Virus record (IMG/VR): IMGVR_UViG_3300036832_000542
Location: 1-23,723 of that record
DNA from: a virus
Strand: one strand, 5' to 3'
DNA length: 23,723 nt
Part shown: positions 1 through 23,723 of the stretch, in pieces
Position numbering within the stretch: position 1 is the first letter of the stretch
Layout: each line of letters opens with the position of its first letter
Program-made: the position numbers and the translations under genes
The notes under the pieces: model-generated
Database searches by the model: none
What the model was told of the DNA's origin: nothing
Seen by the model: the letters and a program-made list of their open reading frames with translations, nothing else

Positions 1-675
1 TACCTCGGCTGGCGCGACTTCCTGGTGGACCTCGTGCGCTCGGGCAAGCGGTCGCGCCGCTCGCTCCTGCTCGAACTGGACAAGGCGACGGCCGATGACA
101 CCGTCACCGTGGAGGCCCTCGACGTGCGAACCGGCGACTTCCGCGAGGTGCTCGGCGACATCGAGCCGGGATCGGTCGCGCTCGTGCTCACCGACCCGCC
201 GTATCCGGCCGAGTATCTGCCGCTCTGGTCCGACCTCGGCAAGTTCGCCACCGTCGCGCTGGCACAGGGCGGATCCCTCGTCGCCTACTGCGGCCAGTCG
301 ATCCTGCTCGACGCCGGTGGACGGCTCGAGGAGTACCTGCGCTACTGGTGGACGCTGGCGCTGCTCAATGGCCACGGATCGCAGATGATCCCCGGCAAGT
401 GGGTCTCAGCCGGGTGGAAACCGCTGCTCTGGTTTGTGAAGGACACCCGTCGGGGCCGGGAGATGCTCCCCGACCGGATCGACGGCTCATCGCCCCGTAA
501 GACACTGCCCACGGGTGACGGCGACGACTGGGCCCAGGGGCTGGCCGAGCTCGAGCCGATCATCTCGGCCCTGACCGTGCCGGGCGACCTCATCGTGGAC
601 CCGTTCGCCGGCAGCGGCACGGTCGGCCTGGCGGCCGAGCGGTTTCACCGCCGGTTCATCGGGGCCGACCTGTGA
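1..675 (+). CDS. DNA methyltransferase, beta class (N6-adenine or N4-cytosine), 5' end cut off
   Basis: Transfers a methyl group from S-adenosylmethionine to an exocyclic amino group in DNA. The open frame runs in from base 1, so the N-terminus is missing; the first internal start is GTG at 25. The catalytic motif DPPYP (near 190-205) comes first and the AdoMet-binding motif DPFAGSGTVGLAAERF lies at the C-terminus (near 595-640). That order is typical of the beta class (N6_N4_Mtase family). The segment before DPPY looks like the end of an N-terminal regulatory or ParB-like domain, but too little is present to say. No restriction enzyme is adjacent, so it is probably an orphan enzyme that protects or marks phage DNA. 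It overlaps the next gene by GTGA. It lies in the left arm that may be an alternative allele (see the 127-bp repeat). Target specificity cannot be read from the sequence. Confidence 0.85.
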   Translation, partial: YLGWRDFLVDLVRSGKRSRRSLLLELDKATADDTVTVEALDVRTGDFREVLGDIEPGSVALVLTDPPYPAEYLPLWSDLGKFATVALAQGGSLVAYCGQSILLDAGGRLEEYLRYWWTLALLNGHGSQMIPGKWVSAGWKPLLWFVKDTRRGREMLPDRIDGSSPRKTLPTGDGDDWAQGLAELEPIISALTVPGDLIVDPFAGSGTVGLAAERFHRRFIGADL

Positions 676-1214
676 CGACTGAACAGTGGTTGCCACCGAG
701 CCGCCGGCCCGACAATGAGGCGGCCGGCTGGCTTGGCTACTACTGCCGCTGTCATCTGCCGCGCGTGTTCGATCTCGTTGACGCCGATGGTGTGGTCCCG
801 GTGGTCTGGCACTACTTGAAGGCCGAAACGCATACCTACCGGTTGTTCGAGGAGAAACCGTCCGGTCAGGTGCTCCACCCGAGCCAGGAACGGACATTCC
901 GGCACCTCGTGGCCGGCCTGGGGCTGTCGGTCTACGTCATCCATAACGCCGAGTGGCTCGGCGTCCCGCGATTCCCGATCGAGGTGACCCGGCTCGGGTC
1001 ACCCGACCAACATCGGACCTTCGGACGGCCCCAGTTCGACAACTGGATGCGCGACGGGCTCTGCCCGCTCGATCCAGCCGAGGCCGAGCGGTGGAGCACC
1101 CGTATCGAAGAAGAAGACGCCCTACTCGATGAGTCCCGAGCTGACCGGGAATGGGCGGCCTTCCAGGCATGGTGCGACGAACACCCCGACGAGCTCGGCC
1201 GCCCGTTCTCGTGA
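672..1214 (+). CDS. Unknown phage protein between methyltransferase and initiator (180 aa)
   Basis: I do not recognise a firm family. GTG at 672 overlaps the preceding stop, and the product is acidic at its C-terminus. Its first half has a compact region with CRCHLP, a DLVDADGVVPVVWHYLK segment and RLFEEKPSGQ followed by SQERTFRHLVAGLG, then VYVIHNAEW. The spacing D...(E)EK...Q is vaguely like PD-(D/E)XK or VRR-type nuclease folds, but this is a weak impression. It sits in the same slot (after a methyltransferase, before the initiator) as the unrelated-looking gene at 22371-23078 in the other cassette, suggesting a function linked to methylation or replication. Its stop overlaps the GTG of the initiator gene, implying coupled translation. 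Confidence 0.6.
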   Translation: MTTEQWLPPSRRPDNEAAGWLGYYCRCHLPRVFDLVDADGVVPVVWHYLKAETHTYRLFEEKPSGQVLHPSQERTFRHLVAGLGLSVYVIHNAEWLGVPRFPIEVTRLGSPDQHRTFGRPQFDNWMRDGLCPLDPAEAERWSTRIEEEDALLDESRADREWAAFQAWCDEHPDELGRPFS

Positions 1215-1867
1215 GCCTCCGGGCCACCCGCCACATGGTCGCCCTGCGCCACGAGGGCAAGCTGCCCGGCGGCGCCCGCCTGCTCGTGCTCCTCGTGCTG
1301 GCCGACTGGGCCCGCCAGGACACGGGCCTTGCCCGGGTGTCCTTCCGTGAGCTCGCCGACCTCTGCGGCGTCCATACCAACACCGTGAACCGGGCCCTCG
1401 ACGACGGCTACCGGGTCGGCGCCCTGGCCCTCGTCGAGCGGGGCAAGCGGGGCCGGGCGAGCACCTACCTCTGCCCGCCGAATCCTGTGGATAACTCCGA
1501 GCCGGGCGACCCCGATGTGCGCGCCTCATGCGCGCAAGGATGCGCGCAAGTAGCGCGCATGGAGTCACCTTCGAGCGCGCACCATGCGCGCACTCCCTAT
1601 CCGAGAATTACCGAGAGCAAAGAGAGCCCACCGCCGGCTGTCCCCAAGGGGCCAGCGGCGGGCTCTTTTGCCAGCCGAGAGCGCACCCCCTACGGCGACC
1701 GGATCCCCGAGCGCGACCGGCCGGCCAACGCGGCCGCTTGGCTGGCGACACTGCCCCCCGACGCCGACGACTACGACGCCCGGGAGTCGGCGACCCTGTC
1801 GTGGCCCCATGACCCCGACATGCGGGCCCACGCCCTCGATGTCTGGGCGAGCGAGCACGCCCGATGA
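1211..1867 (+). CDS. Winged-helix replication-initiator-like protein, copy A
   Basis: 218 aa from a GTG that overlaps the upstream TGA (GTGA). Residues about 20-90 form a helix-turn-helix/winged-helix domain of the HTH_36 type, with recognition region ELADLCGVHTNTVNRALDDG followed by a beta-wing ending in TYLCPP. The middle (about 95-150) is low complexity, because the DNA there is a row of GCGCGC boxes and a hairpin. The C-terminal 45 residues (AAAWLATLPPD onward) are compact and identical to copy B as far as the window shows. An N-terminal DNA-binding domain over boxes placed in the middle of its own gene is the arrangement of lambda O-type initiators, so I infer a replication initiator. 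A transcription regulator is the alternative. The stop overlaps the ATG of the C5 methyltransferase (ATGA). A longer in-frame start at 1151 exists, but homology with copy B begins at 1211. Confidence 0.7.
   Translation: MSLRATRHMVALRHEGKLPGGARLLVLLVLADWARQDTGLARVSFRELADLCGVHTNTVNRALDDGYRVGALALVERGKRGRASTYLCPPNPVDNSEPGDPDVRASCAQGCAQVARMESPSSAHHARTPYPRITESKESPPPAVPKGPAAGSFASRERTPYGDRIPERDRPANAAAWLATLPPDADDYDARESATLSWPHDPDMRAHALDVWASEHAR
1486..1600. other. Candidate replication origin A: DnaA box plus GCGCGC boxes inside the initiator gene
   Basis: TGTGGATAA at 1486-1494 is the exact reverse complement of the high-affinity DnaA box TTATCCACA. Downstream lie six boxes sharing TGCGCGC or its complement: GTGCGCGCC (1517-1525), two tandem ATGCGCGCAAG units 12 bp apart (1528-1538 and 1540-1550), an inverted AGCGCGCAT (1552-1560), an inverted AGCGCGCAC (1574-1582) and ATGCGCGCAC (1584-1593). 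A short less GC-rich stretch (GAGAATTACCGAGAGCAAAG, about 1603-1622) follows. The same order (DnaA box, boxes, AT-richer spot, hairpin) occurs in copy B. Seen: the repeats. Inferred: origin function, by analogy with iterons inside phage initiator genes. Confidence 0.55.
1624..1665. repeat. Hairpin inside initiator gene, copy A
   Basis: The inner stem is GCTG-t-CCCC / GGGG-c-CAGC (1637-1656), extended by GCC/GGC, with an outer stem GAGCCC (1624-1629) / GGGCTC (1660-1665) followed by TTTT. Copy B keeps the inner core but has GTTCGCC/GGCGAAC outside, so both sides of the outer stem changed together. It looks like an intrinsic terminator but lies in an open reading frame that continues another 200 bases with a conserved protein end. 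A structural role at the origin is therefore more likely than simple termination. Confidence 0.6.
1724..1850 (+). repeat. 127-bp exact direct repeat, left copy
   Basis: Identical to 23597-23723, the last 127 bases of the window. The bases just before differ (G at 1723, C at 23596). It covers the 3' part of the initiator gene. The length equals a widely used de Bruijn k-mer and one copy ends exactly at the contig end, so it is most likely an assembly-graph overlap marking a branch point. Confidence 0.95.
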
Positions 1868-2751
1868 CCCGGCCCACCGTCGGGTCACTCTGCACCGGCA
1901 TCGGCGGGATCGACCTCGGCCTGGAGCGGGCCGGGTTCGAGATCCGCTGGCAGTGCGAGATCGACCCCTACTGCCGCAAGGTGCTGGCCCGGCACTGGCC
2001 CGGTGTGCCCTGCCATCCCGACGTGGAGGACCTGCCCTGTGACCTGGGACCAGTTGACCTTGTGGCCGCCGGATACCCCTGCCAGCCCTTCAGCCTCGCC
2101 GGGACCAGAGCCGGCGACGGCCATGAGCACTACCTCTGGCCCGCCATCGTCGGCGCCCTTCGCATGGTTCGACCCGGCCACGTCCTGCTGGAGAATGTCC
2201 CAGGGCACCTTTCCCTGGGCTGGGACCGGGTCCTCGGTGACCTGGCCGCGCTGGGGTATGACGTGGAATGGACGTGCATACCGGCGGCCGCCGTTGGTGC
2301 GCCTCACCTTCGCTGGCGGCTGTTCGCTATTGCACACGCCAACGGCGACAGCGAATCAAGCGTGCCCGTCAATGCGTTCTCGGGACGCGGGGTCGTGGTT
2401 TCCGACACCGACCGCGACGGAGTACGGGAACAACCAGTCACCGAGCTCGGGTGCAGCGGTGCGACCGTCTTTGCAGACAATGGCGAGGAGTGGGCTTTGG
2501 CCGACGCCGTCGGCGCGGGACTGGCGATCATGCGGCGCGAGCCCCGAAACGATGGCGAGGAATGCCCGACCACTAAACGAGACGGTGACGGGCGGCGACA
2601 CTGGGAGTCTGAACCCGCCGTGGGTCGAGTGGCTAATGGGGTTCCCAATCGGCTGGACAGAATGCGAACCCTTGGCAACGCGGTAGTGCCACAGGTGGCC
2701 GAGCTCGTCGGCCGTCACCTGCTGGCCCACCTCGACCGGGTGGCCCGGTGA
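1864..2751 (+). CDS. dcm: C5 cytosine DNA methyltransferase (Dcm family)
   Basis: 295 aa; ATG overlaps the initiator stop. Methylates carbon 5 of cytosine in DNA. Visible motifs: I, SLCTGIGGIDLGLERAGF (residues about 8-25); IV, YPCQPFS with catalytic Cys73; VI, ENVPG (110-114); VIII-like, VGAPHLRWRLF (144-154); and a C-terminal X-like motif TLGNAVVPQVAEL. It belongs to the short phage class in which the segment between motif VIII and the final helix is brief and ends in a GRVANGVPNRLDRMRTLGNA-like run. No partner nuclease is seen, so it is probably an orphan enzyme. Third-position GC drops in the second half (about 2290-2690) compared with its neighbours, which fits the overlapping +1-frame gene described separately. 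It is shared by both cassette alleles. Confidence 0.9.
   Translation: MTRPTVGSLCTGIGGIDLGLERAGFEIRWQCEIDPYCRKVLARHWPGVPCHPDVEDLPCDLGPVDLVAAGYPCQPFSLAGTRAGDGHEHYLWPAIVGALRMVRPGHVLLENVPGHLSLGWDRVLGDLAALGYDVEWTCIPAAAVGAPHLRWRLFAIAHANGDSESSVPVNAFSGRGVVVSDTDRDGVREQPVTELGCSGATVFADNGEEWALADAVGAGLAIMRREPRNDGEECPTTKRDGDGRRHWESEPAVGRVANGVPNRLDRMRTLGNAVVPQVAELVGRHLLAHLDRVAR
2123..2686 (+). CDS. Overlapping +1-frame protein with WVEWLMGFPIGWT ending, nested in the C5 methyltransferase gene
   Basis: The frame one base ahead of dcm is open from 2003 (GTG) to the TAG at 2684-2686. Possible starts are GTG 2003, ATG 2123 and ATG 2197; I give 2123 arbitrarily. Its product contains WPRWGMTWNGRAYRRPPLV, repeated PTPTAT and LWPTPSARDW, RPLNETV and SLNPPWVEWLMGFPIGWT. 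These are hallmarks I know from phage proteins found next to or fused to C5 methyltransferases, of unclear function. The same bases encode valid Dcm motifs in frame 0. Over 2499-2686 my hand count of third-position GC is about three quarters in this frame and about two thirds in frame 0, so this is not a simple GC-driven shadow. It could be made by internal initiation or by frameshifting, or it could be a fossil of the ancestral frame. Confidence 0.45.
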   Translation: MSTTSGPPSSAPFAWFDPATSCWRMSQGTFPWAGTGSSVTWPRWGMTWNGRAYRRPPLVRLTFAGGCSLLHTPTATANQACPSMRSRDAGSWFPTPTATEYGNNQSPSSGAAVRPSLQTMARSGLWPTPSARDWRSCGASPETMARNARPLNETVTGGDTGSLNPPWVEWLMGFPIGWTECEPLATR

Positions 2752-3562: not shown

Positions 3563-3727
3563 ATGGGCGATACCGTCATGCTGCGCCGGTTCCTGGTGGT
3601 CTGTGCCGCCGTCGCTGCCATCGTGCTGGGCGTCGTGGTCCTGGTCGGTGCGCCCACCAACAGCCTCGACCTGTTGGCCGGTGCCGGTATCGCCAGTGGC
3701 GCTGGTCTGTTGGTCCTGCTCATCTAG
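3563..3727 (+). CDS. Small two-helix membrane protein (54 aa)
   Basis: ATG 3563. Two hydrophobic segments (about residues 9-28, FLVVCAAVAAIVLGVVVLVG, and 36-54 ending in GLLVLLI) flank a short polar turn. This is a small double-spanning membrane protein with basic residues (LRR) before the first helix. Function unknown; superinfection exclusion or a holin/antiholin are possible, but a better holin candidate lies next to the endolysin. No clear Shine-Dalgarno is visible. TAGAGT at 3550-3555 ends seven bases before the ATG and could be a -10 box of a leaderless transcript, since the same arrangement recurs at 20285-20299. Confidence 0.6.
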   Translation: MGDTVMLRRFLVVCAAVAAIVLGVVVLVGAPTNSLDLLAGAGIASGAGLLVLLI

Positions 3728-4011: not shown

Positions 4012-4239
4012 ACACCGGGTGGACTGACCATGGTGGCCACCACTGACGACACTGACGACACCACCCATGCGCGCGCTGACTGACCTCTCGACCTCGTCGA
4101 CCTCGTCGCCGCCGCCACCCCGGGCGCGCCGCGCCGTCGGCACCCCCCCGCGTTTTTTGGTGGGGCCATGCGCCTACATCCGCCAATGCCTCAATATTTG
4201 CGCTCTGTTCGCCCAGGTCAGAGCGGTTAGGCAGGGTTG
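4012..4239. other. Intergenic region between HNH and terminase; possible packaging site
   Basis: About 230 bases without a convincing gene. It holds a 10-bp perfect palindrome GGTGGCCACC (about 4031-4040), tandem CTGACGACA units (about 4046-4062), a repeated CGACCTCGT run (about 4088-4108), GGCGCGCC (4123-4130), and a C-run/T-run segment at 4145-4163. The right end is AT-richer (CAATATTTGCG). In many HK97-like phages the cos or pac site lies in this interval. No overhang can be identified from a single contig. Confidence 0.35.
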
Positions 4240-19042: not shown

Positions 19043-19057
19043 GTCGCATCATGCGAC
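19043..19057. repeat. Dyad at the integrase stop codon
   Basis: GTCGCAT-C-ATGCGAC, 7-bp arms with one central base, overlapping the integrase stop (19049-19051). It could be part of attP, an Int/Xis arm site or a weak terminator. Only the symmetry is seen. Confidence 0.4.
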
Positions 19058-20005
19058 CACCCGAAGTTGGGTACGCCGGCGGGGCTTGTCATCCGGGGGG
19101 ATGGGCTCGGGGGCGCCGTAGTCACGGCCGGCCATGGCGGCCCGCATACGGTCGAGGTTCGAGTGGCGCAGGTAGATGGCCGTCGTGGCGAGGTGCTGGT
19201 GGCCCAGCATCTCCTGCACCGTGCGGAGGTCTTTCGAGAGCTCGTAAACGTCCGAGGCGCAGGTGTGGCGCAGGGCATGGCCCGAGCGCCCGTCGTAGGG
19301 GCCGGCCTTGATCCCGGCCTTGGCCATCCAGGCCGACACCAGCTTCACGACGGCCGACGGGTTCAGGGCCTGGCCCCGCGGCGGGCGCTGGGATCCGATG
19401 AGGATGCCGGCGTGGCGGCCCCGGTCGGTCAGGTACTTGTCGAGGTGCACGGCGACCTCGTCGGGCACCGGCACCATGCGCTCGTGGCCGCCCTTGCCCC
19501 GGACGAACAGGGTCTGGCCGTCCTGGTCCCAGTCGGCCAGCTCCAGCGTCGCCACCTCGGCCGCCCGCAGCCCGCACCCGAGCATGAGCATGACCACGGC
19601 CCAGGCCCGCTGATCGGGCAGGACTTCGAGCAGGGCGCGCACCTGGGCCCGGGTGAGCGCCCGGGGCACCCGGCGCGGTTCACGCACCCGGGGCACCCGG
19701 GTGCACGGGTCGGCGGCCAGGTGGCCCTCATCCACCATCCAGGCCGTGAAGCCCTTTACGGTGGACAGGTAGGCCCGCCGGGACGCCGGGGCCAACTGGA
19801 GCGAACCTAGCCACCTCTCGATGCCCGCCCGGGTGAGGTCCGTCACCTTCGGGCAGACGGCGACCAGCGTGGCGAGGCGGGACCTGTGAAGGCCGGCCGA
19901 CTTAGCGCCAATCTCGGCGCGCGCCGATCGCCCTTCCAGGTAGGTGGATACCCGGGCGGCCGTGGTCATCGTTTTCGATGCATTGCGGCGGGTACCGGTG
20001 GTCAC
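19049..20005 (-). CDS. int: Tyrosine site-specific recombinase (phage integrase)
   Basis: 318 aa from GTG 20005, or 306 aa from ATG 19969; neither has a clear Shine-Dalgarno. Catalyses integration and excision through a 3'-phosphotyrosine. N-terminal SAM-like core-binding domain (TRAGIERWLGSLQLAPASRR, YLSTVKGFTAWMVDEG), then the catalytic domain with the full set of active residues: Arg147 (GCGLRAAEV), Lys171 (VRGKGGHER), His243/Arg246 (HALRHTCAS), His269 (LGHQHL) and Tyr278 (TTAIYLRH). There is no recognisable N-terminal AP2-like arm-binding domain, so it belongs to the short XerC/D-like type. It is the only leftward gene, convergent with lysis genes and divergent from the early operon, as in a lysogeny switch. 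Confidence 0.92.
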   Translation of the reverse strand: MTTGTRRNASKTMTTAARVSTYLEGRSARAEIGAKSAGLHRSRLATLVAVCPKVTDLTRAGIERWLGSLQLAPASRRAYLSTVKGFTAWMVDEGHLAADPCTRVPRVREPRRVPRALTRAQVRALLEVLPDQRAWAVVMLMLGCGLRAAEVATLELADWDQDGQTLFVRGKGGHERMVPVPDEVAVHLDKYLTDRGRHAGILIGSQRPPRGQALNPSAVVKLVSAWMAKAGIKAGPYDGRSGHALRHTCASDVYELSKDLRTVQEMLGHQHLATTAIYLRHSNLDRMRAAMAGRDYGAPEPIPPDDKPRRRTQLRVVA

Positions 20006-20127: not shown

Positions 20128-20262
20128 GCACTGGCCCTTGACCAGGGGCGATGTGAAGGGTTCGGAGGGCATCGTTTGTGACCGCGGACGCTTGCCCGTT
20201 ACGGGTCGATGTCCGGGCGGCACCCAAGTGTAAATCCAGACCGTTCGCGGGCGGTGTCACCG

Positions 20263-20290
20263 TTGACTTGTGCGCCCCGTTCGTCAGAGT
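20263..20290 (+). promoter_or_regulatory. Candidate leaderless promoter of the early operon
   Basis: TTGACT (20263-20268), 16 bases, CAGAGT (20285-20290), then eight bases to ATG 20299. The start point would fall on or next to the ATG, and no Shine-Dalgarno precedes it. Leaderless messages are common in actinobacteria. TAGAGT seven bases before the ATG at 3563 is a similar arrangement. Confidence 0.45.
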
Positions 20291-20298
20291 GGGCAGTC

Positions 20299-20481
20299 AT
20301 GCCCGACACTGCTGACGAACTACTGACGGTCGACGAGGCCCTCGCCGAGTTCCCCTATTCGCGCCGCACGATCGAGCGCTGGATTGCCATCGGACTACTG
20401 CAGACGGTGCAGCCCTACGTTCGCACCCAGCGCTACGTGCTGCGCTCGCAGCTGGAGCAGGTCAAGTCCTCGGCGTCGTGA
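20299..20481 (+). CDS. Excisionase-like / MerR-type small HTH protein
   Basis: 60 aa: ELLTVDEALAEFPYSRRTIERWIAIGLL then RTQRYVLRSQLEQV. This is the 'HTH_17' excisionase/DNA-binding pattern (helix-turn-helix followed by a wing with R-Y/V-L-R-S-x-L). First gene of the rightward early operon, divergent from the integrase, so it is probably the recombination directionality factor or the regulator of the int/early switch. The in-frame upstream extension to 20209 is unlikely. Ends in GTGA overlapping the next start. Confidence 0.75.
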   Translation: MPDTADELLTVDEALAEFPYSRRTIERWIAIGLLQTVQPYVRTQRYVLRSQLEQVKSSAS

Positions 20482-20639
20482 GCGACGTTCCGAATATCAG
20501 CGCCGTCTACCCGCTCGCCTGGCTGGATCCGGCTATGCGGTGCTCGGTCTGTGGCGACTTGGCTCGCTATAGCGATGTCTGGGGCGACGAGCTCTACTGC
20601 TCCCAGGTCTGCCGCGATCGGCACTGGGAAGGATCGTGA
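20478..20639 (+). CDS. Small zinc-finger-like protein (53 aa)
   Basis: GTG 20478 overlaps the previous stop and the gene ends in GTGA overlapping the next. Contains CSVCGDLARYSD and, after GDELYCSQVCRDRHWEG, a second Cys pair: CxxC...CxxxC with His nearby. This is a plausible single zinc knuckle. Too short for confident family assignment; the overlap with both neighbours and the Cys pattern support it as a real gene. Confidence 0.6.
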   Translation: MSDVPNISAVYPLAWLDPAMRCSVCGDLARYSDVWGDELYCSQVCRDRHWEGS

Positions 20640-21427
20640 GCACGGCCGAGGTCGTCCCCGTCGGCCCTGGCGCGCTCGTCGTCCCGGTCGCCCCGCTGGC
20701 CGACATCGTCGAGGCCGTGCGCCAGTACGAGGAGACGGCCGGCGCCATCCTGCGCCCGGGTGACTGGCAGCGCGCCGCCGACGGCCGGTTCGTCGTCCGC
20801 TCGGGCTGGCGCCGCCTGGCGCTGGCCTTCGGGTTCACCGACGAGCTCGCCACCCGTGATGTCGAGTACACCGAGGCGGGCGACATACGCCGGGTAACGA
20901 CGGTGGTCCGGGTCGTCGCCCCTAACGGCCGGGCGTCCACCGGCGTCGGCGTCTGCTCGCTGACCGAGAAATGCTGCGACGGCCCACCAGACTGCCGGCG
21001 CCGCCATGCCCACTGTGAGCCCGGCTGCCGGGCCCGGCGCCACTGGACGGCGCCCGACCACACGATCTCGGCCACCAGCTACACCCGGGCGCTCTCGCGG
21101 GCCATCGCCGACCTCGTGGCCGGTGCGCCGCCCGAGGACGACGACGACGGCACGGGCCCGTTCAGTGGCCACGACACCTACGAGCCGGCGGCGCGTATGC
21201 GGGCGCCAACGCCAACGCCCATCGAGGCCGACCCGGCCACGGGCGAGGTCCTGGGCAAGGTGTCGTCCGACGAGATCCTCGACCGGATGCGGGCCCTGTC
21301 CAACGAGGACCAGGCCGGCCTCTCGGCCTACTTGGAGCACGCCGGGATCCCGACGCCGCCCCGCTCGCCCGTTCAGTTCCGCAAGGTGGCCCGGTGGCTG
21401 GAGGCGAACGACCGGGACAGCCGGTGA
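20636..21427 (+). CDS. Putative single-strand annealing / recombination-associated protein
   Basis: 263 aa; GTG with GGAAGGA upstream. The core (about 45-165) has RFVVRSGWRRLALAFGF, VTTVVRVVAPNGRASTGVGVCS and, after a His, SATSYTRALSRAIADLVAGA. The scheme 'K/RSGWR+lA.AFG ... ARA.APNGR...G.G.cs ... H..A.TRA..RAI.DLvg' recurs in phage and archaeal-virus proteins that I loosely associate with ssDNA-binding/annealing (ERF/Rad52-like) roles; this is from memory and unproven. Here the loop after GVGVCS is enlarged by a Cys/His-rich insert (CCDGPPDCRRRHAHCEPGC) that could bind zinc. A small C-terminal helical domain (SSDEILDRMRALSNEDQAG) follows. Confidence 0.5.
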   Translation: MSTAEVVPVGPGALVVPVAPLADIVEAVRQYEETAGAILRPGDWQRAADGRFVVRSGWRRLALAFGFTDELATRDVEYTEAGDIRRVTTVVRVVAPNGRASTGVGVCSLTEKCCDGPPDCRRRHAHCEPGCRARRHWTAPDHTISATSYTRALSRAIADLVAGAPPEDDDDGTGPFSGHDTYEPAARMRAPTPTPIEADPATGEVLGKVSSDEILDRMRALSNEDQAGLSAYLEHAGIPTPPRSPVQFRKVARWLEANDRDSR

Positions 21428-22371
21428 ACCGCGACGAGGCCGAGGAGTACACGGCGGCGCTCGGGCAGATCGGCGGCGGCCTTTGGCGACAGATCCTCTG
21501 GGCACAGCAGCAGGGGGTTCCGGCCGCGCTGGGCCTGTCGCTGCGCGAGTGGGTGGACGGGAGCCTCGGCGGCTACGTGCGCATGGCAGTCGAGGAACGC
21601 CGGCGCGTCGTGGCCGAGCTGACCGACGAGGGCATGTCGTTGCGACAGGTGGCCGACGTGGTGGGCGTCAGCAAGTCGCAGGTGTTCGAGGACTTGTCCA
21701 CTTCTGGACAGTCGGGCGACGACGAGCAGGGCGACGAGGCCAGCCGGTGTCCAGAAGTGGACATCCTCCCAGACCCAGACGCGGACCGCTCCGAGCAGGT
21801 GGCCGAACTGGCTCGCCAAGGTGGCCCCGAGCCGGTTTCAGCGCCGCCGCTGCCGGTCGGACGGTATGCGTGCCTCGTCATCGACCCGCCGTGGCCCATG
21901 CGCAAGATCGAACGCGAGACCCGGCCGTGGCAGGGAACCGAGCTCGACTACCCCGTCATGACGGTCGAACAGATCGGCGACCTGGCGAAGGACATTGACA
22001 CTCTCGCCGAGGCCGACGCCCACCTGTACCTCTGGGTGACACACCGGTTCATGCCCGACGGCCTGGCACTGCTCAAGCGGTGGGGCTTCAAGTACCAGTG
22101 CCTCATGACCTGGAACAAGAACACCGGGATCGTGCCCTACTCATGGATGTATGACACCGAGCACGTGCTCTTTGCCACCCGGGGGGCGCTCAAGGTCGCC
22201 CGCCGGGGACTGCGGCTCTCGTTTGACGAGCCGGTCGCCGGCCACAGCATAAAACCCGAGGTGTTCTACGACCGGGTACGCCTGGCCTCGCCGGGCCCTC
22301 GGCTCGATATGTTCGCCCGCCAGACCCGTGAGGGGTTCGACACCTGGGGCGCCGAGATCGGGGCGGCGTGA
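21424..22371 (+). CDS. MT-A70 family DNA N6-adenine methyltransferase with N-terminal HTH
   Basis: 315 aa from GTG 21424, overlapping the previous stop. Residues about 60-92 form a helix-turn-helix (VVAELTDEGMSLRQVADVVG then VSKSQVFEDL), followed by a flexible acidic linker, then the MT-A70 domain: LVIDPPWPM catalytic motif (residues 152-160), LYLWVTHRFMPDGL, GFKYQCLMTWNKN, the AdoMet/target region TEHVLFATRGALK, and KPEVFYDRVRLASPGPRLDMFARQ. It methylates adenine in DNA. The HTH suggests sequence-specific docking, perhaps on the two dyads in its own linker DNA. It occupies the same slot as the beta-class enzyme of the left arm. Confidence 0.88.
   Translation: MNRDEAEEYTAALGQIGGGLWRQILWAQQQGVPAALGLSLREWVDGSLGGYVRMAVEERRRVVAELTDEGMSLRQVADVVGVSKSQVFEDLSTSGQSGDDEQGDEASRCPEVDILPDPDADRSEQVAELARQGGPEPVSAPPLPVGRYACLVIDPPWPMRKIERETRPWQGTELDYPVMTVEQIGDLAKDIDTLAEADAHLYLWVTHRFMPDGLALLKRWGFKYQCLMTWNKNTGIVPYSWMYDTEHVLFATRGALKVARRGLRLSFDEPVAGHSIKPEVFYDRVRLASPGPRLDMFARQTREGFDTWGAEIGAA
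21695..21763. promoter_or_regulatory. Two 16-bp dyads inside the MT-A70 gene
   Basis: TGTCCA-CTTC-TGGACA (21695-21710) and TGTCCA-GAAG-TGGACA (21748-21763). Each is an inverted repeat and the two are also exact reverse complements of each other. Start-to-start spacing is 53 bp, very close to five helical turns. They lie in the linker between the HTH and the catalytic domain. They could be operators for the protein's own HTH, or could form a 16-bp hairpin in the message. Confidence 0.65.
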
Positions 22372-23078
22372 TGGCGTTCGCCGAAGACTTCGAATTCAGC
22401 GACCGATTCCGCCAGCACTTGTGCGAGATCGCAAAGAACGTGTTCCGGCCCCAGGTCGCGCCGCAGATGGACGACTGGCAGCGAAACACCGACTTTCTGC
22501 TGAGTGTGGACGTTCCGCACCGGGACGGCCTTATCCGGATCTCAGCGCGATGCCGGCGCCGCAAGTACATCGGCCGTTACGGCGCAAAGGATTTCACCGT
22601 CCGCTACCGGCGGCCGAGCGGCGTCGCCACGGAAATGGTCAAGATGCTGAACGGCTGGGGAGATCTGTTCGTCTATGGGTTTGAGGCCGCCGACGGATCG
22701 GACCGCCTGTTCCCATATTTCGTCGGGAATACCCAGTTACTCCGGCAGTCGATCCGTGACGGCTGCGGGCCGTGGGCAATCCGGACCAACAAGGACGGCA
22801 GCTCGTCTATGGCCGTCTTCCGGCTAATGGACATGCCGCTCGGGTTCGTCCTCTACAGCGAAGGGATCACCATCGACGACGAGGACATCTGGTTCCAGTG
22901 CCCTGGCTGCTACACGCGACGAGGAATGCCACTCGACGACCGAGGACAGGCGGGGGACGGTTTCGAGCGCCGCTGCCTGTTCTGCGGGCATGAATGGCGA
23001 TCGGCTCGCTCTGGCCACCTCTTCAAGCCCGGCGCCTCGGCCCTGCCGCCGAATCGCCTTGGGATCGAGTCCAACTGA
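22371..23078 (+). CDS. Unknown phage protein with C-terminal zinc ribbon (235 aa)
   Basis: ATG 22371 shares a base with the MT-A70 stop (TGATG). The first 160 residues are a mixed alpha/beta domain: DFLLSVDVPHRDGLIRISAR, CRRRKYIGRYGAKDFTVRYR, EMVKMLNGWGDLFVYGFEAA. The run of polar strands followed by 'GWGD.f.YGF' recurs in phage early proteins of unknown function and may be a nuclease-like fold, but I cannot identify an active site with confidence. The C-terminus has a zinc ribbon: FQCPGCYTRRG ... RRCLFCGHEW (CxxC-x31-CxxC). It precedes initiator copy B by five bases. GC is somewhat lower than in the structural genes. Confidence 0.6.
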   Translation: MAFAEDFEFSDRFRQHLCEIAKNVFRPQVAPQMDDWQRNTDFLLSVDVPHRDGLIRISARCRRRKYIGRYGAKDFTVRYRRPSGVATEMVKMLNGWGDLFVYGFEAADGSDRLFPYFVGNTQLLRQSIRDGCGPWAIRTNKDGSSSMAVFRLMDMPLGFVLYSEGITIDDEDIWFQCPGCYTRRGMPLDDRGQAGDGFERRCLFCGHEWRSARSGHLFKPGASALPPNRLGIESN

Positions 23079-23083
23079 CGCTC

Positions 23084-23723
23084 ATGAGTCTCCGAGCCAC
23101 CCAGCACGTCTGGTCGCTGCGTGACGAGGGCAAGATCCCCGGTGGCGCCCGCCTGGTCGTCCTCCTGGCCGTGGCCGACTCGGCCCGGTCCAACACGAAC
23201 ATGGCCCGGGCGTCCCAGCGCCAGCTCGCCGAGCTCTGCGGTGTCCACACGATGACCGTGGCCCGGGCCCTCGACGACGGCTACCGGGCCGGCGCCCTCG
23301 CCGTCGTCTATCGCAGTCGGGGCAGTGGCCCGAGCGTCTTCCTCTGCCCGCCCGGCCCTGTGGATAACTCAGCCGAGCCCGAACCGAACTGCGCGACTGA
23401 GTCGCGCAGCGATGCGCGCAGCCTGCGCGACTCACGCGCGCAGTACCGCGCGACTGACGCGCGCAATCCCAGGAACGGGAATTACCAGGAGGCGAAAAGT
23501 TCGCCGCCGGCTGTCCCCAGGGGGCCAGCGGCGAACCGTTCGCCGGCCACCGAGCGCACCCCGTACGGGCCCAAGGTCGCCCCCGCCGATTGGGACGCCA
23601 ACGCGGCCGCTTGGCTGGCGACACTGCCCCCCGACGCCGACGACTACGACGCCCGGGAGTCGGCGACCCTGTCGTGGCCCCATGACCCCGACATGCGGGC
23701 CCACGCCCTCGATGTCTGGGCGA
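23084..23723 (+). CDS. Winged-helix replication-initiator-like protein, copy B (cut by window end)
   Basis: 213 codons of a gene homologous to 1211-1867 from its first residue: SLRAT, EGKIPGGARLVVLLAVAD, and recognition region QLAELCGVHTMTVARALDDG against ELADLCGVHTNTVNRALDDG in copy A. The N-terminal DNA-binding half is clearly diverged from copy A, the middle is repeat-rich in both, and the last 42 codons are identical at DNA level. If the contig is circular the gene would finish at 1867 (AAAWLATLPPD...ending in ASEHAR). Divergence at the DNA-binding domain together with different repeat boxes suggests changed binding specificity. Same functional inference as copy A: origin binding and recruitment of host replication proteins. 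Confidence 0.7.
   Translation, partial: MSLRATQHVWSLRDEGKIPGGARLVVLLAVADSARSNTNMARASQRQLAELCGVHTMTVARALDDGYRAGALAVVYRSRGSGPSVFLCPPGPVDNSAEPEPNCATESRSDARSLRDSRAQYRATDARNPRNGNYQEAKSSPPAVPRGPAANRSPATERTPYGPKVAPADWDANAAAWLATLPPDADDYDARESATLSWPHDPDMRAHALDVWA
23359..23466. other. Candidate replication origin B inside the initiator gene
   Basis: The same TGTGGATAA DnaA box occurs at 23359-23367. It is followed by a near-perfect palindrome with 10-bp arms CTGCGCGACT / AGTCGCGCAG and one central base (23389-23409), then ATGCGCGCAG (about 23412-23421), CTGCGCGACTC (from 23423), CGCGCGCAG (about 23435-23443), GCGCGACTGACGCGCGCAA (about 23448-23466). The core GCGCG is shared with copy A, but the preferred flank here is GCGCGACT, not ATGCGCGCAAG. 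An AT-richer spot (GGAACGGGAATTACCAGG, about 23471-23488) and the hairpin follow as in copy A. Confidence 0.55.
23499..23536. repeat. Hairpin inside initiator gene, copy B
   Basis: Outer stem GTTCGCC (23499-23505) / GGCGAAC (23530-23536), inner stem GCTG-t-CCCC (23510-23518) / GGGG-c-CAGC (23521-23529). The inner core is identical to copy A except for one loop base, while the outer stem differs on both sides in a base-pair-preserving way. No T-run follows here (CGTTCG), unlike copy A, which argues against a shared terminator function. Confidence 0.6.
23597..23723 (+). repeat. 127-bp exact direct repeat, right copy at window end
   Basis: Identical base for base to 1724-1850 and ends with the window. 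If joined to the left copy, copy B continues into the shared 3' end (1851-1867) and the C5 methyltransferase, closing a circle of 23596-1723 = 21,873 bp. Confidence 0.95.

Follow-up and report, generated by a model that had tools for sequence, protein, structure and literature searches.

The window analysed here is the entire stretch of 23,723 nucleotides of the IMG/VR virus record IMGVR_UViG_3300036832_000542. Near its two ends lie homologous genes for putative replication initiators, which lead into one and the same 127-nt sequence; we term the sequences entering it from the left end of the contig and from its right part arm A and arm B, respectively. The pertinent features are as follows:

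1..675, plus strand: arm A, gene for an N6_N4 DNA methyltransferase, cut by the contig start so that its C-terminal part is left (Pfam N6_N4_Mtase, E=2.4e-12)
672..1214, plus strand: arm A, gene of 180 aa, coupled to the methylase and without a family match; has a short E-x-K motif in common with the gene after the methylase in relatives
1211..1867, plus strand: initiator A, 218 aa, lambda O-like, with an N-terminal HTH (phrog_391 'replication initiation O-like', E=5.4e-5; Pfam HTH_36, E=3.8e-5)
1518..1592, plus strand: iteron array A within initiator A, six GCGCGC cores spaced 11-12 nt apart, except where one step is skipped (clustering compared with codon shuffles, P=0.0035)
1724..1850, plus strand: internal repeat copy, the graph node at which arms A and B enter common sequence; encodes the C-terminal part common to both initiators
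1864..2751, plus strand: C5-cytosine methyltransferase, directly downstream of the node and common to both arms as assembled (Pfam DNA_methylase, E=3.2e-34)
4150..4205, plus strand: probable cos site (packaging end), which the contig runs through; 28 of 71 relatives' contigs begin at this feature
20636..21427, plus strand: conserved gene upstream of arm B, with a homologue upstream of the initiator in G020 and G026
21394..22371, plus strand: arm B, MT-A70-type methyltransferase (Pfam MT-A70, E=7.7e-19; phrog_359, E=5.9e-40)
22368..23078, plus strand: arm B, 236-aa gene, named a zinc-ribbon gene in the preliminary description; no family match
23084..23723, plus strand: initiator B, 218 aa, completed in frame by 1851-1867 after the join (weak match to phrog_4617, replication initiation protein, E=0.0015)
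23390..23465, plus strand: iteron array B within initiator B, seven cores of the GCGCG type spaced 11-12 nt apart (clustering compared with codon shuffles, P=0.001)
23597..23723, plus strand: terminal repeat copy at the contig end, a k-mer overlap with 1724-1850

Self-comparison of the window showed that 23597-23723 is an exact copy, 127 nt in length, of 1724-1850 and that the match stops at the next base to the left (G versus C), confirming what the preliminary description had reported. Apart from a 26-mer at 1390/23263, which falls within the same homologous region, there is no other exact repeat of at least 22 nt in the window. The opening 20 to 127 bases of the window do not recur anywhere in it; hence, only the right contig end sits in a repeat. 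A tRNA-related repeat was also considered, and the window contains no tRNA. The 127-bp match is not a chance occurrence, since it lies in register, at an offset of 21,873, with a homology of 643 nt (1208-1850). Within this homology a diverged part (1208-1723 versus 23081-23596) precedes the exact 127 nt; its ungapped identity is about 78% across the first 233 nt (1208-1440), followed by gapped homology up to the exact part.

The two initiators of the window are alleles of one gene with a common, identical end, and the contig halts exactly 127 bases into the identical stretch. A codon-wise comparison of A and B gave an identity of 75% for residues 1-95 (the HTH part), of 46% for residues 96-171 (iteron/linker) and of 100% for the C-terminal part, whose 42 codons are free even of synonymous changes. 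Given that both starts (1211 and 23084) lie 513 nt, i.e. 171 codons, upstream of the repeat, initiator B reads in frame across the join of the two repeat copies. Of the marks of an O-like initiator, an iteron array inside the gene is present in both alleles and a profile match is likewise found for both, that of B being weak; members of this initiator family in relatives have stronger matches to the same PHROG families (1e-8 to 1e-16 for L132 and L141). No other clusters of this kind in the window are as dense as arrays A and B, of which B is the denser; the cores span 1519-1586 in A and 23391-23460 in B. The bases flanking the common GCGCG core differ between the two arrays. In three relatives (G006, G016 and G026) other motifs are repeated inside the initiator gene, mostly at steps of about 22 nt. 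Hence A and B are, weakly by profile, putative lambda-O-like replication initiators, each with an internal iteron array of its own, and iteron binding and origin activity are predicted functions.

Upstream of the initiators the arms are unrelated, with an N6_N4 methylase and the 180-aa gene in A versus an MT-A70 methylase and the 236-aa gene in B. The arm-A methylase is 66-78% identical to genes in three members of the clade (G031, G033 and G034), where these occupy the same slot, between the integrase and HNH/terminase; this indicates that arm A is not foreign. In L146 (10001-11121), L148 (10001-11151) and L154 (10001-11145) a methylase of the arm-A type is directly followed by a gene of 144-168 aa with D-x-D and E-x-K motifs. 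The 180-aa gene of the window shows only about 23% identity to these post-methylase genes, and it is possible that arm A and its relatives carry a putative methylase-nuclease cassette. The 236-aa gene of arm B matched no Pfam or PHROG family, none of the fetched records contained a relative of it, and its structure model was uninformative (mean pLDDT 32). A tyrosine integrase (19049-20005, minus strand), with a close relative in G020, and an excisionase-like gene (20209-20481, plus strand) indicate that the phage is temperate.

Relatives were fetched via TerL, the C5-methylase and the arm-A methylase, and 33 whole records were read. Pattern searches with initiator A or the gene at 20636-21427 recovered no relatives, and no record of a close relative was found in the phage collection. 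In the genome collection TerL had distant relatives only (33-36%), in Sphaerimonospora, Streptomyces, Paractinoplanes and Frankia, which offer a hint of actinomycetes as hosts. Neither a 42-nt piece taken from the node nor the initial 30 nt of arm A occurred in any public viral contig, and neither haplotype is therefore independently confirmed.

The length of the repeat is an assembly k-mer size. That 127 is a standard value of k had been proposed earlier, and it finds support in the end repeats of the relatives, which are exactly 127 bp in three that are closed as circles (G009, G010 and G033) and exactly 97 in four others (G011, G015, G017 and G031), all from metagenome 3300047160. In the simulations of the COBRA study, breaks that repeats caused in metaSPAdes and MEGAHIT assemblies came with end overlaps of the maximum k (PMC10914622). 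Among contigs from the same assembly, L044 and L062 have precisely their first 127 bases in common, and L030 contains the opening 127 bases of L079 at an internal position; such overlaps are not always 127, with 118 and 123 also being seen. In five relatives (G003, G006, G007, G008 and G016) the two contig ends carry two slightly different alleles of one region, with the greatest divergence in G003 (77 mismatches in 796 nt). These overlaps of length k and two-allele ends together indicate that contigs running once round a circle into a second allele are common in the clade. IMG/VR classes the five two-allele contigs as linear, and their closure gives circles of 20.6-23.6 kb.

A graph built with k=127 from the circle 1724-23596 and a piece running from position 1 into the common part resolves into a tail unitig of 1850 and a self-loop unitig of 22,000, and tail plus loop minus k gives the window letter for letter. 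A control graph of a single linear molecule that has both copies and continues in unique sequence beyond 23723 yielded the same tail and loop, implying that the length of 127 marks a graph node and not the number of molecules. Following this control the length alone was rejected as proof of two molecules. The window thus displays what is expected of a lasso contig, namely an overlap of length k with the next base mismatched and a tail and loop that rebuild it, the latter not being specific to two molecules. The 127-bp repeat is most likely, indeed almost certainly, a trace of the computing and not a structure of the phage.

We consider it very probable that the contig is a lasso, comprising a 21,873-bp circle with arm B and a tail, arm A, from a second related phage. 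It would represent a 'rho' path through a de Bruijn graph of k = 127, in which the main genome is the circle corresponding to 1724-23596, bearing the MT-A70 methylase, the 236-aa gene and initiator B with its internal iterons. The left tail, 1-1723, with the N6_N4 methylase, the 180-aa gene and initiator A with its own iterons, would come from the second phage in the sample and run into the sequence of the circle at the node 1724-1850. Having started in A, the assembler would have gone once round the circle and halted after re-entering the node, leaving exactly k bases as the terminal repeat. The sample would accordingly hold two replication-module haplotypes that differ in the DNA-binding domain, iterons and upstream cassette and are joined inside the initiator gene; the C-terminal part of the initiator is identical in both, and from the node onward they would share k bases or more.

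The repeat, the two alleles, the end overlaps of the relatives and the identity of the graph path with the window are direct observations; that they reflect two molecules rather than one we infer, with the relatives favoring this in three respects. Each of the eight other records with a member of the initiator family has a single copy (8/8), and only the window has two. The clade contains A-type methylases. Furthermore, the 21.7-kb relative G020, which starts at the probable cos site, presents in succession a homologue of the gene at 20636, small genes, its sole initiator, a small gene, a C5-methylase downstream of that initiator, a homologue of the membrane gene at 3563-3727 and an HNH gene, and this backbone order is the one that the join creates for arm B. 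The preliminary description had proposed a lasso contig with a circular genome of about 21.9 kb and, for the joined copies, a sensible order of MT-A70 methylase, 236-aa gene, initiator B, C5-methylase, small genes and packaging genes. This order is as had been stated, with initiator B in frame and a matching backbone order in G020; the circle stands at 21,873 bp and its graph rebuilds the window, the term circular being apt only for the joined intracellular form. Likewise, 1-1723 had been taken for an alternative allele and second route into the node, which agrees with the initiator homologue in register and the methylase of the clade. Arm A, however, does not rejoin the circle on the left and its left end cuts the methylase gene, which makes it an arm of a fork and not a closed bubble. 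The doubt voiced about two origins in one phage also held up.

Were the contig instead a part of a single temperate phage larger than 23.7 kb, modules B and A would stand in tandem with two initiators and origins and methylase cassettes of their own, recent gene conversion would have rendered the C-termini identical, and the contig would end at an unresolved repeat. In the graph, a molecule of this kind yields the same tail and loop, and both modules would fit within the genome sizes of the clade, which reach 29.9 kb. Against this stand the single copy in every relative with this initiator and the agreement of the joined order with G020. Moreover, a repeat longer than 127 would normally be extended to the next fork, giving an overlap greater than k (a mild argument), and a repeat of exactly 127 would owe its length to coincidence. 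We regard one such molecule as very unlikely. It is also most unlikely that the join is chimeric, with arm A stemming from an unrelated replicon that has only the node in common and the junction from A to 1851 existing in no molecule. Assemblers can indeed fuse strains at shared k-mers, and arm A fails to rejoin the circle on its left; yet it carries a homologue of initiator B in register, the closest relatives of its methylase occupy the corresponding slot in phages of this clade, and both arms read in frame through the gene that contains the node.

A true terminal redundancy of virion DNA, i.e. direct terminal repeats, has next to no likelihood, despite the repeat being exact and reaching one contig end, because it would call for a copy at both ends, whereas the other copy lies within the contig, 1.7 kb away from the opposite end, and the length equals an assembly k. 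The clade also points to an end site elsewhere, and this alternative was rejected. Among the 71 relatives bearing TerL, the contigs that begin at the probable cos site do so at a conserved T-tract, 245-335 bp ahead of TerL (e.g. G001, G004, G014, G019 and G020). In G003, which spans this region, the end and the start of its close relative G004 are separated by seven bases (CTGATGC), a gap of the kind that the loss of a single-strand overhang from the ends of G004 would leave. Hence, there is probably a cos-like site about 270 bp before TerL, and particles probably hold linear DNA with cos ends near 4150-4205. These starts in the relatives suggest that the DNA is probably packaged in linear form, the circle being the joined intracellular form.

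With the lasso as the favored explanation, the record most likely represents a 21,873-bp genome with one initiator, one origin and two methylases, and not one of 23.7 kb with two origins and three methylases. The overlap, exact over k=127 and located where the contig breaks, resembles the maximum-k end overlaps of de Bruijn assemblers (COBRA, PMC10914622) and the bubbles and mosaic paths described with Phables (PMC10563150), and in those cases too strain variation and shared regions are the cause. It differs from the usual end overlap in that one partner is internal, as a consequence of which end-repeat tests such as that of IMG/VR class the contig as linear; lasso contigs thus escape completeness tests of this kind.

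In lambda the origin (ori-lambda) is located within gene O (PMC6022878). The A and B initiators are like lambda O (PMC6022878) in having an N-terminal HTH, iterons inside the gene, an AT-richer stretch after the iterons and a separate C-terminal part, and the likeness extends to the PHROGs 'replication initiation O-like' match, though the sequence matches are weak. Unlike in lambda, the iteron core in the window is GCGCGC at 11-12 nt steps, and the gene below the initiator encodes a C5-methylase rather than a P-type helicase loader. Lambdoid phages exchange replication modules in a mosaic fashion. The window recalls such exchange in that a different DNA-binding part with its iterons is placed on a common C-terminal part; it departs from it in that two haplotypes of one soil phage population are concerned and the upstream methylase cassettes also differ. 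The arrangement of two replication-module haplotypes joined inside the initiator gene is ordinary phage mosaicism, a neat but expected case of it.
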